Shown: positions 14,316 through 17,229 of the stretch, one piece after another | Layout: each line of letters opens with the position of its first letter | Position numbering within the stretch: the first letter of the stretch is position 1 | Assembly (NCBI GenBank): GCA_001794755.1 | Contig: MGKT01000005.1 | Coordinates: 1 to 45,368 of the forward strand | Reading direction: 5' to 3' | DNA: 45,368 nucleotides | From: Candidatus Yanofskybacteria bacterium RIFCSPLOWO2_02_FULL_44_18 | Lineage (GTDB): Bacteria; Patescibacteriota; Minisyncoccia; 2-02-FULL-40-12; GWA2-44-9 | Translations under genes and position numbers: made by a program | The notes under the pieces: model-generated | What the model was told of the DNA's origin: nothing | Database searches by the model: none | Seen by the model: the letters and a program-made list of their open reading frames with translations, nothing else

Positions 14316-15980
14316 TTGGGATATCGTGGCGGTGTGGATCCACTTCAAAATCAAAACGAGCTCGACAAAAAACTTGCCGACATCCAAATGAACCGGGCTG
14401 ATGAAGACCAGCAAGCCCTGGCCAGTAAACTTGGCTTGCCCTTTTCCGATTTGAAAGGCAAGCCGATTGACACGGAAGCCTTGGCCATCGTCGAGGAAAA
14501 TATCGCTCGGGCCGGAGGGTTGGCCGTAATATACAAGCAAGGAAGCAACACAACCTTAGCATTATTGGATCCCGACAAAGAGGAAGCCAAGCAGGTATTA
14601 GCCGGCCTGAAAACCAAGGGATACGCAATTTCAATAATCATCACCACCCAACGCGGCATCGAGAGGGCCTGGGTCCGCTACAAGGATGTGATTAAAAAGG
14701 AGGTTTTTGAAATTGGAGCCATAAAGGTGAGCGAGGAGGAAATAGCAAACTTTCAAAATCAGATCAAGAGCATATCCGATCTAAAGAACAAGGTGGCCGG
14801 TTTGTCGGTCACCAAACTTTTGGAAATACTGCTGGCTGGGGCATTGAAAATCGGCGCTTCGGATATTCACTTTGAACCTCAAGGACAGAAAACACGCTTG
14901 AGGTATCGCCTGGATGGTGTTTTAAACGATGTGGCCGATATTCCGTCTGAAGAATACAAAAAAATAGTAAGCCGGGTAAAAGTCCTTTCCAAGCTTAAAA
15001 TAAACGTTTCCGACAGCCCGCAGGACGGCCGATTCACGATCCATCTCTCAAATGTCGACATTGAAATCCGCGTTTCCGTTCTGCCTAGTGAGTACGGCGA
15101 AACTATTGTCATGCGCTTGCTTGATCCGCGAACGATTCGCCAGCAGCTGGAGGATTTGGGCATGCGTCCCGATCTGCTCGAAATCGTCAAAGAGCAGCTG
15201 AAAAAATCAACGGGAGCGATACTGACAACGGGCCCCACCGGTTCCGGCAAAACCACCAGTCTTTATGCTTTCATTCAGTACGTCAATTCGCCTGACGTGA
15301 AGGTCATAACCATCGAGGACCCGATTGAATACCATATTTCCAGCATATCCCAAACCCAAGTTGAGCCGGAGAAGGGGTATAGTTTTGCCACCGGATTGCG
15401 AGCCATCGTTAGGCAGGACCCGGATATCATCCTTGTCGGTGAAATAAGAGACGCTGAAACCGCCGAAATCGCGCTGAATGCCGCTCTGACCGGACATCTC
15501 GTGCTGTCCACGCTTCACACCAACAACGCGGCCGGCACAATTCCCCGCCTCATTGATCTGGGAATTCAAGCTCAAACAATCGCGCCGGCCATAACCATGG
15601 CCATGGCCCAGAGATTGGTGAGAAAACTATGTCCGTCGTGCAAAAAGGAAAGCATTTTATCTCTCGAAATTATGAAAAAAATAGAAGCTCATTTGTCAGG
15701 CATAGCTAAACGGTACGGCATAGATTTGAGAAATATTAAGATTTTTGAAGCCGGCAAATGCGATAAGTGCAACCAGACCGGATACTTGGGACGAATAGGA
15801 GTATATGAAGCATTTTTAATCACGCCGGACATGCAAAAACTCATTCTTTCTTCACCTTCTATTCCTGAAATTGAAGCAGCGGCTGTTGAACAGGGCATGG
15901 TTTCAATGCTTCAAGACGGATATCTTAAGATGATTGAAGGCCTTACGACCATGGAGGAAATTGAAAGAGTTTTAAGTTAA
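14316..15980 (+). CDS. pilB: type IV pilus assembly ATPase PilB / GspE family
   Basis: TTGPTGSGKTTSLYAF Walker A, VITIEDPIEY, QVEPEKGYSFATGLRAIVRQDPDIILVGEIRDAETAEIALNAALTGHLVLSTLHTN, CxxC pair CPSCKK / CDKCNQTGYLGR. Exact start uncertain. Confidence 0.95.
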   Translation: MGYRGGVDPLQNQNELDKKLADIQMNRADEDQQALASKLGLPFSDLKGKPIDTEALAIVEENIARAGGLAVIYKQGSNTTLALLDPDKEEAKQVLAGLKTKGYAISIIITTQRGIERAWVRYKDVIKKEVFEIGAIKVSEEEIANFQNQIKSISDLKNKVAGLSVTKLLEILLAGALKIGASDIHFEPQGQKTRLRYRLDGVLNDVADIPSEEYKKIVSRVKVLSKLKINVSDSPQDGRFTIHLSNVDIEIRVSVLPSEYGETIVMRLLDPRTIRQQLEDLGMRPDLLEIVKEQLKKSTGAILTTGPTGSGKTTSLYAFIQYVNSPDVKVITIEDPIEYHISSISQTQVEPEKGYSFATGLRAIVRQDPDIILVGEIRDAETAEIALNAALTGHLVLSTLHTNNAAGTIPRLIDLGIQAQTIAPAITMAMAQRLVRKLCPSCKKESILSLEIMKKIEAHLSGIAKRYGIDLRNIKIFEAGKCDKCNQTGYLGRIGVYEAFLITPDMQKLILSSPSIPEIEAAAVEQGMVSMLQDGYLKMIEGLTTMEEIERVLS

Positions 15981-15983
15981 AAA

Positions 15984-16155
15984 CAAAAACCCTGTAATCT
16001 GTAGGCAAAACCCGGATTTTCAAAAATCCAGGACAGGATAATTCTAAGGAGTTATCCAGTCGGAACCGAATAATCCATTATGATAGTATCCCGAATTAGG
16101 TCGGTGGTGTATGAAAATACGCTGACCCAATTGCCTACAGATTACAGGGGTTTTT
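15984..16155 (+). ncRNA. candidate structured RNA or TIR element of unknown family
   Basis: CCCTGTAATCTGTAGGCAA (15990-16008) pairs perfectly with TTGCCTACAGATTACAGGG (16131-16149). Internal hairpins GGATTT-tcaa-AAATCC, GGATAATTC-taag-GAGTTATCC and GTGTAT-gaaa-ATACGC, then a T-run. No ORF. Confidence 0.6.
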
Positions 16156-16212
16156 AAGAAAAACGATCCCTTTTGGGGATAAATTAATACTCTTATTTTA
16201 ATCTAAAAACAA

Positions 16213-17229
16213 ATGCCTGTCAATCCTCCTAAAATGGCCCCAAAAGCCACTCCGGAAGACCAAATCCTGGATTCGACTTTAAGGCCCGGAACATTTGAAG
16301 AATACATCGGTCAGGAAAAAATTAAAGCCAACCTAAGGGTCGCCGTCGGCGCGGCCAGGAAAAGAAACGATCAGATGGAGCACATCCTTCTGCACGGCCC
16401 GTCTGGCCTGGGCAAAACGACTCTTGCCTTCTTGATTGCCAAAGAATTGGGCAGCAACCTTCGAATAACGTCCGGCACTGCTCTTGAAAAGGCCGGTGAC
16501 GTCGGTTCGATTCTTACCGGTCTTTCAAACGGCGATGTTCTTTTCATAGATGAAGTCCACCGTCTAAATCGCAACGTCGAAGAAGTTATATATCCGGCCA
16601 TGGAGAACTACAAGCTTGATATCGTTATAGGGAAAGGCAATTCGGCCAAAACGCTGCAAATAGATCTGCCGCGTTTCACCCTCATTGCCGCAACCACCAA
16701 GATATCGGCCCTTTCGGCGCCCTTTCGCTCACGATTCGGCCTTAACTTCAGACTCGATTTTTACAATGAGAAAGACATTGAGAAAATATTATCCCGATCA
16801 TCAAAAATTCTGGGTGTTAAGGTCGAAAAAACCGCCCTTGAATCGATGGCCATGGCCTCGCGCTGCACGCCAAGAGTGGCAAACAGAATATTAAAACGCG
16901 TCCGGGACTACGCCCAAATGAAAGACGCGGATATCATCACAGCCGACCTTGCCGCCAAGAGTCTGTCGATGCTGGAAATAGACCAGAAAGGGCTGGAAGA
17001 AACGGATCGGAAGATTCTTCTTGCAATAGCCAATAAATTCAACGACGGGCCGGTTGGCTTGAAATCGATTGCCGCCGCCATATCGGAAGAGGAAGAAACG
17101 ATTGAAAGCGTCTATGAGCCGTATCTGATGCAACTTGGCTTTTTGGCCCGCACGCCCAAGGGCCGCGTCATTACGGCGGGCGGCAAAGAGCATCTGGGCA
17201 TTATGCCGAAGCAAACGTTGGATCTTTAG
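16213..17229 (+). CDS. ruvB: Holliday junction DNA helicase RuvB
   Basis: LRPGTFEEYIGQEKIKANLRVAV, LLHGPSGLGKTTLA, LFIDEVHRLNRNVEEVIYPAMENYKLDIVIG, GPVGLKSIAAAISEEEETIESVYEPYLMQLGFLARTPKGR. Confidence 0.97.
   Translation: MPVNPPKMAPKATPEDQILDSTLRPGTFEEYIGQEKIKANLRVAVGAARKRNDQMEHILLHGPSGLGKTTLAFLIAKELGSNLRITSGTALEKAGDVGSILTGLSNGDVLFIDEVHRLNRNVEEVIYPAMENYKLDIVIGKGNSAKTLQIDLPRFTLIAATTKISALSAPFRSRFGLNFRLDFYNEKDIEKILSRSSKILGVKVEKTALESMAMASRCTPRVANRILKRVRDYAQMKDADIITADLAAKSLSMLEIDQKGLEETDRKILLAIANKFNDGPVGLKSIAAAISEEEETIESVYEPYLMQLGFLARTPKGRVITAGGKEHLGIMPKQTLDL

Follow-up and report, generated by a model that had tools for sequence, protein, structure and literature searches.

Parcubacteria make up a large share of bacterial diversity, and in their minimal genomes little noncoding DNA survives. 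What, then, is the long inverted repeat that separates pilB from ruvB in a Candidatus Yanofskybacteria genome, and is it a regulatory element of one of these genes, a mobile repeat, or a gene in its own right? We addressed this question starting from a window of 45,368 nt, the whole stretch of DNA analysed here, and extended the analysis to related genomes.

An inverted repeat between pilB and ruvB

In the ORF list for the window, the repeat is flanked by pilB (14316..15980, plus strand) and ruvB (16213..17229, plus strand), both of which are conserved neighbours. A sequence-only reading of this DNA had described the interval 15984-16155 as free of ORFs and enclosed by a 19-bp closing stem with A5/T5 ends, and had pointed to TTTTAAG on both sides of it. 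These features are borne out by the sequence: positions 15990-16008 and 16131-16149 are perfect complements over 19 bp, the A5 and T5 ends are present, TTTTAAG occurs at both 15970 and 16152, and no ORF of 80 aa fills the interval. With one mismatch or bulge, the arms extend to 15985-16008 and 16131-16154. The fold energy of 15984-16155 is far below that of dinucleotide shuffles on the plus strand (z = -8.85), and that of the minus strand including its leader is similarly low compared with shuffles (z = -7.4). The element is present as a single copy in its own 631-kb genome.

Distribution and genomic context

Homologues were recovered by DNA search in 25 of the 28 genomes of the same family. 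Using ruvB as the anchor to locate the element in family genomes, we found it directly upstream of this gene at all 26 family loci with a contig intact over the element. The RuvB alignments of G006, G011, and G013 broke into two pieces at about residue 237, a pattern that would be seen with an insertion of ~25 residues, and for G001 the first piece alone was listed.

The 26 family members were aligned (alignment A1), and five helices together with a capping hairpin were used to build a first covariance model, R1. With this model, the element was recovered in 41 of 45 order genomes and in at least 156 of the 286 class genomes (55%), prevalence figures that are lower bounds because R1, like the subsequent models R2 and R3, was built on the wrong (plus) strand, which reduced sensitivity. 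Matches fell in one place per genome; this place is palindromic, and the second match listed is its opposite strand. An exact-word search of genome contigs with one stem arm gave no match; a gapped pattern matched 16 contigs, from Candidatus Yanofskybacteria, Azambacteria, Portnoybacteria, and unclassified Parcubacteria or Patescibacteria.

The neighbourhood is well conserved. Within the family, pilB adjoins the element at 25 of 26 loci (the exception is a contig end) and ruvB at 26 of 26. At 62 further loci from the class outside the family, pilB lies within 300 nt in 55 and ruvB within 400 nt in 55; both genes are nearby in 49 and neither in one, so that pilB and ruvB are each missing from the vicinity at seven loci. 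The distance from element to ruvB ranges from tens to hundreds of nucleotides. As the element persists when either neighbour leaves, it is part of neither pilB nor ruvB.

Covariation of the predicted fold

Double changes were observed at 32 pairs in the family alignment, compared with 16.4 after shuffling. We then considered 51 class members (alignment A4), in which 48 of 50 pairs had both sides changed in at least one sequence; the double-change cells numbered 677, against 215 in shuffled data, and the covariation score was 0.608, against 0.184, although pair counts are inflated in A4, as in the shorter-form alignment A7 described below, by the fitting of these alignments to the model. The covariation was lost when the partners were shifted by 1-3 columns. 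When all well-occupied columns were scanned for mutual information, the 29 strongest pairs were 29 pairs of the model; the scan itself is structure-free, and the underlying alignment was fitted to the structure. By eye, the side-hairpin loop might form a pseudoknot with the internal loop, but the column scan gave no signal for it, and a GGGG/UUCC pairing proposed by plus-strand RNAalifold gave way to the P5 hairpin, which covaries. The sequence-only reading had suggested an alignment and covariation analysis as a check, and compensatory changes were found across both the family and the class.

These results bear on an alternative raised at the outset, in which the repeat is a MITE or another element with terminal inverted repeats. 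The inverted repeat and the flanking TTTTAAG of the Yanofskybacteria genome would fit such an origin. The element is single-copy, however, and occupies a fixed locus in many families across the class, its compensatory changes fall within a conserved internal structure, and TTTTAAG is specific to this genome, with no flanking duplication at the element ends in relatives. We regard a mobile origin as extremely improbable, the least credible of the explanations considered here.

Strand, promoter, and terminator

G-U pairs are tolerated in RNA and appear as A-C on the complementary strand, such that the mismatches within a conserved fold reveal which strand is the RNA. Read on the plus strand, A-C outnumbered G-U by 186 to 66 in A4, 60 to 31 in A1, and 68 to 35 in A7 (binomial p of 2e-14, 0.003, and 0.0015, respectively, which are optimistic given that cells are not independent). 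On the minus strand, paired cells rise to 92.1% (A4), 93.0% (A1), and 85.1% (A7), and this strand folds better in 46 of 51, 23 of 26, and 27 of 29 sequences of the same alignments. The plus-strand loop CGRA becomes UYCG on the minus strand, a tetraloop of the UNCG type, and the helix extends through GGY-UYCG-RCU. In the window, the minimum-energy fold of the minus strand is close to the conserved architecture, in contrast to that of the plus strand, which is unlike it.

A promoter search on the same strand gave a concordant result. The pattern TTGACA, 16-18 nt, TANAAT with at most one mismatch was found in all 26 family members (160 nt upstream, minus strand), compared with none in shuffles and 0 of 25 on the plus strand. 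At the 62 other class loci, 41 had a promoter with at most one mismatch (0.1 in shuffles) and 55 with at most two (2.9 in shuffles). Neither this signal nor the strand asymmetry depends on the fitting of the alignments. The putative promoter of the window comprises a -35 box TTGACA (16218..16223, read 16223 to 16218), located inside the first codons of ruvB and conserved in 26 of 26 family members, and a -10 box TAAAAT (16195..16200, read 16200 to 16195), separated by a 17-nt spacer; it matches the consensus at 11 of 12 positions and is the sole sigma-70-like site in 15900-16300. Between the promoter and the first helix, the minus strand has at 16166-16180 a small hairpin that resembles a terminator and is followed by a T-rich tail.

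At the other end, a candidate terminator U-tract, UUUUUGUUUUU (15979..15989, minus strand, read 15989-15979), overlaps both the stop codon of pilB and the outer end of helix P1; across relatives, some ten positions at the 3′ end of the minus strand are rich in U. The terminator had been placed earlier at the TTTTT of the right end; it is instead the A-runs at 15979-15989 that give the tail on the complementary strand. As judged from these signals, the element would carry both a promoter and a terminator of its own, as expected for a stand-alone noncoding RNA gene.

The minus-strand assignment follows from the G-U/A-C asymmetry, the fold energies, the UNCG-type tetraloops, the promoter, and the 3′ U-tract, and reverses the strand of the sequence-only reading. 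Together with the covariation among 26 members of the family and 51 of the class, these lines of evidence show a predicted RNA gene at 15979..16188 (minus strand) that would be transcribed leftward from ~16188 to 15979 (~210 nt, the exact 5′ and 3′ ends of which we infer), divergent from ruvB and convergent with pilB. The plus-strand reading, which had been the initial basis of R1-R3 and of the synteny argument, was overturned by the excess of A-C over G-U, as was a pilB 3′ UTR element, considered after a promoter search of the plus strand had come up empty. The tight position between the two genes could be accounted for by a ruvB riboregulator or leader on the plus strand, or by a 3′ UTR element of pilB; the strand tests nevertheless favour the minus strand, the plus-strand fold holds more A-C mismatches, and there is no plus-strand promoter upstream of the element, such that this explanation appears highly improbable. 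The earlier suggestion of a riboregulator of ruvB also conflicts with an RNA that lies on the opposite strand, divergent from the gene, and is kept where ruvB is not nearby.

The conserved fold runs from 16154 to 15985 on the minus strand and consists of a long closing stem, P1, carrying an irregular P3-P4 arm and two variable side hairpins. In RNA order, the 5′ arm of P1 (16131..16154), in which 25 of 25 pairs have double changes in the class, is followed by hairpin P2 (16095..16130), which has seven covarying pairs and is missing from many class members. The 5′ arm of P3 (16087..16093) leads through the 5′ side of a conserved internal loop (16077..16086, consensus CUUAG) into P4 (16048..16076), the UNCG-type apical loop of which is UCCG here and UUCG in many relatives (CGGA at 16061-16064 on the plus strand). 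The 3′ side of the internal loop (16041..16047, consensus CUCGGA) and the 3′ arm of P3 (16034..16040) complete this arm; both sides of the loop are defined by conserved columns. Hairpin P5 (16011..16032), supported by covariation and the minus-strand fold, precedes the 3′ arm of P1 (15985..16008), identified by complementarity and covariation. Of the three hairpins originally drawn inside the closing stem, one lies outside the conserved fold. This proposed 9-bp hairpin, GGATAATTC-taag-GAGTTATCC, is a feature of this genome alone, and one of its base pairs forms in just 1 of 26 relatives; in the conserved fold, GGAGTTAT pairs instead with ATAATCC at 16070-16076, and the P3/P4 arm, the alternative to this hairpin, is paired in 92.6% of cells.

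A shorter form outside the class

A second covariance model, R2, was built from the class alignment and matched eight genomes outside the class with E-values from 3e-9 to 1e-3; the match in G478 is probably due to chance. In four of these genomes, five sequences have in common a shorter form with P1, P3, P4, and the same UYCG cap, together with an invariant CGACAAGCAU bulge (RNA orientation) on the 5′ side, opposite a short strand. A model of this shorter form, R3, matched 33 genomes outside the class. The shorter form exhibits strong covariation and the same strand bias as the class (A7), and a promoter on the same strand was found at 18 of 26 loci compared with 1.3 in shuffles, being missing or weak at the other eight. 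R3 matches class members weakly, at the right place, and the two forms are probably homologous. The neighbours of the shorter form are VanW-like, ClpP-like, or other genes, as named by eye from sequence. Two tandem copies are present in G608 (L226:1286-1402 and L226:1501-1617), the only duplication seen.

One may postulate a cis-acting scenario in which minus-strand transcription from within ruvB represses that gene, or the transcript pairs with pilB-ruvB read-through mRNA. The -35 box lies within the start of ruvB in the window, the RNA is antisense to any such read-through, and both neighbours are kept at 49 of the 62 class loci outside the family. This mechanism requires no compensatory fold, however, and it sits poorly with a ruvB distance that varies from tens to hundreds of nucleotides, with genomes in which ruvB or pilB is not nearby, and with the different neighbours of the shorter form. 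We therefore consider antisense or interference improbable as the function of the element, even though the tight pilB-ruvB neighbourhood in the class may leave room for a local role.

Known RNA families

A search of Rfam 15 (4227 families) returned no match at 15984-16155 on either strand up to E = 1, in agreement with the lack of RNase P, SRP, tmRNA, and 6S landmarks in the initial description. Known RNAs were found elsewhere in the genome. An RNase P identity was considered and rejected: the match in this genome fell below the gathering cut-off, but RNase P RNA is present at G000:C6:179091-179543 (RF00010). tmRNA (RF00023) is located at L192:17199-17553, with none in the window. LOOT RNA (RF03000) occurs in three copies elsewhere in the genome (L190:4590-4706, L190:13206-13326, and L192:6048-6165). 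A tRNA-Arg (anticodon CCG) at L187:7979-8051 (G000, contig C2, ~47579-47651) lies inside the 23S rRNA gene (LSU match L187:6607-9590) and is flanked by the complementary arms GATGATTTCGAAAAGGAT and ATCTTTTTCGAAATCATC, apparently a tRNA carried in a 23S helix insertion. On contig C6, L181:9513-9708 matches group I introns (RF00028) at 50.5 bits, just over the cut-off, and a tRNA search there found none.

SRP RNA was pursued as a possible identity given that RF00169 was missing from the genome. Neither RF00169 nor the helix-8 motif matched at the locus, a genome-wide motif search yielded no convincing site, and no SRP RNA was recognised in the order. The identity was rejected as Ffh and FtsY are missing too: PF00448, which represents their GTPases, had no full-length match in the 45 genomes of the order, and all 14 controls were found. 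The absence of SRP in Parcubacteria was already reported in 2015 (PMC4508563).

The main specific rival is an extremely divergent 6S RNA, in which the element would be a candidate promoter mimic binding the sigma-70 RNA polymerase. Its size, single copy, strong sigma-70 promoter, and long closing stem are consistent with this, and no 6S RNA was recognised in the order or in the scan of G000. The absence of an RF00013 match at E ≤ 1 on either strand is weak evidence against it, since the Rfam model found 5 of 14 control genomes and evidently misses divergent 6S RNAs. The hallmark of 6S RNA is a large symmetric single-stranded bubble, and its apical sequence is poorly conserved. A 6S layout can be drawn, with P1 as closing stem, a central bubble in the P2/P5 region, and an apical stem made of P3-P4, but it seems doubtful, as hairpins or a short one-sided bulge, rather than a large bubble, occupy the junction. 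Furthermore, the conserved nucleotides are found in the P3/P4 internal loops and the cap, and in the shorter form the invariant CGACAAGCAU bulge faces a short strand. A 6S identity is thus unlikely in our estimation, albeit less so than the antisense scenario.

No description of this RNA was found in the main texts of published open-licence papers.

Discussion

Our analyses indicate that the element is very probably a minus-strand gene for a stand-alone noncoding RNA, given its promoter, terminator-like end, and covariation, and the fact that its neighbours are not fixed. The discrete noncoding RNA of the sequence-only reading accordingly stands, with class-wide conservation as additional support. 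Transcription would start from the near-consensus sigma-70 promoter overlapping the start of ruvB and end at the pilB stop codon, where P1 and the U-tract would form an intrinsic terminator.

The explanation we favour for its function is that of a trans-acting ribonucleoprotein RNA, which appears reasonably likely. Such an RNA may be abundant and have a housekeeping role in Parcubacteria as the RNA component of a ribonucleoprotein. The conserved internal loop of P3/P4 would then be the likely protein- or RNA-binding site, and P1 could hold and protect the RNA ends. There is about an even chance, in our view, that it represents an undescribed CPR housekeeping RNA of Parcubacteria and further lineages of the phylum, belonging to a ribonucleoprotein without a known counterpart in other bacteria. 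If so, it would be a candidate ribonucleoprotein kept by genomes that discarded even the signal recognition particle. The RNA is likely to be important given that it is single-copy and structured, has a near-consensus promoter, and occupies the same locus across dozens of families, and its sequence, strand, ends, and structure provide a concrete target for finding a new ribonucleoprotein. Its novelty is a match to no known RNA family, and this would lessen if the RNA proves to be 6S, in which case 6S-like control of RNA polymerase would survive in these genomes in unrecognisable form.

Among known systems, the element matches neither LOOT (RF03000) nor any other of the 4227 Rfam families, yet with the orphan RNAs LOOT, raiA, and OLE it has in common that it is a conserved bacterial structured RNA without an assigned function. 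Relative to 6S RNA (RF00013), it has no sequence or covariance match, lacks the large symmetric bubble, and carries its conserved motifs in the apical arm, but it shares a length of ~170-210 nt, a long closing stem, a single copy, a sigma-70 promoter, and an intrinsic terminator. Although it has no helix-8 motif, Rfam match, or Ffh/FtsY partner in the order, it resembles SRP RNA (RF00169 and relatives) in being single-copy and of the housekeeping type, and in combining a long stem with an arm that bears internal loops and a tetraloop.
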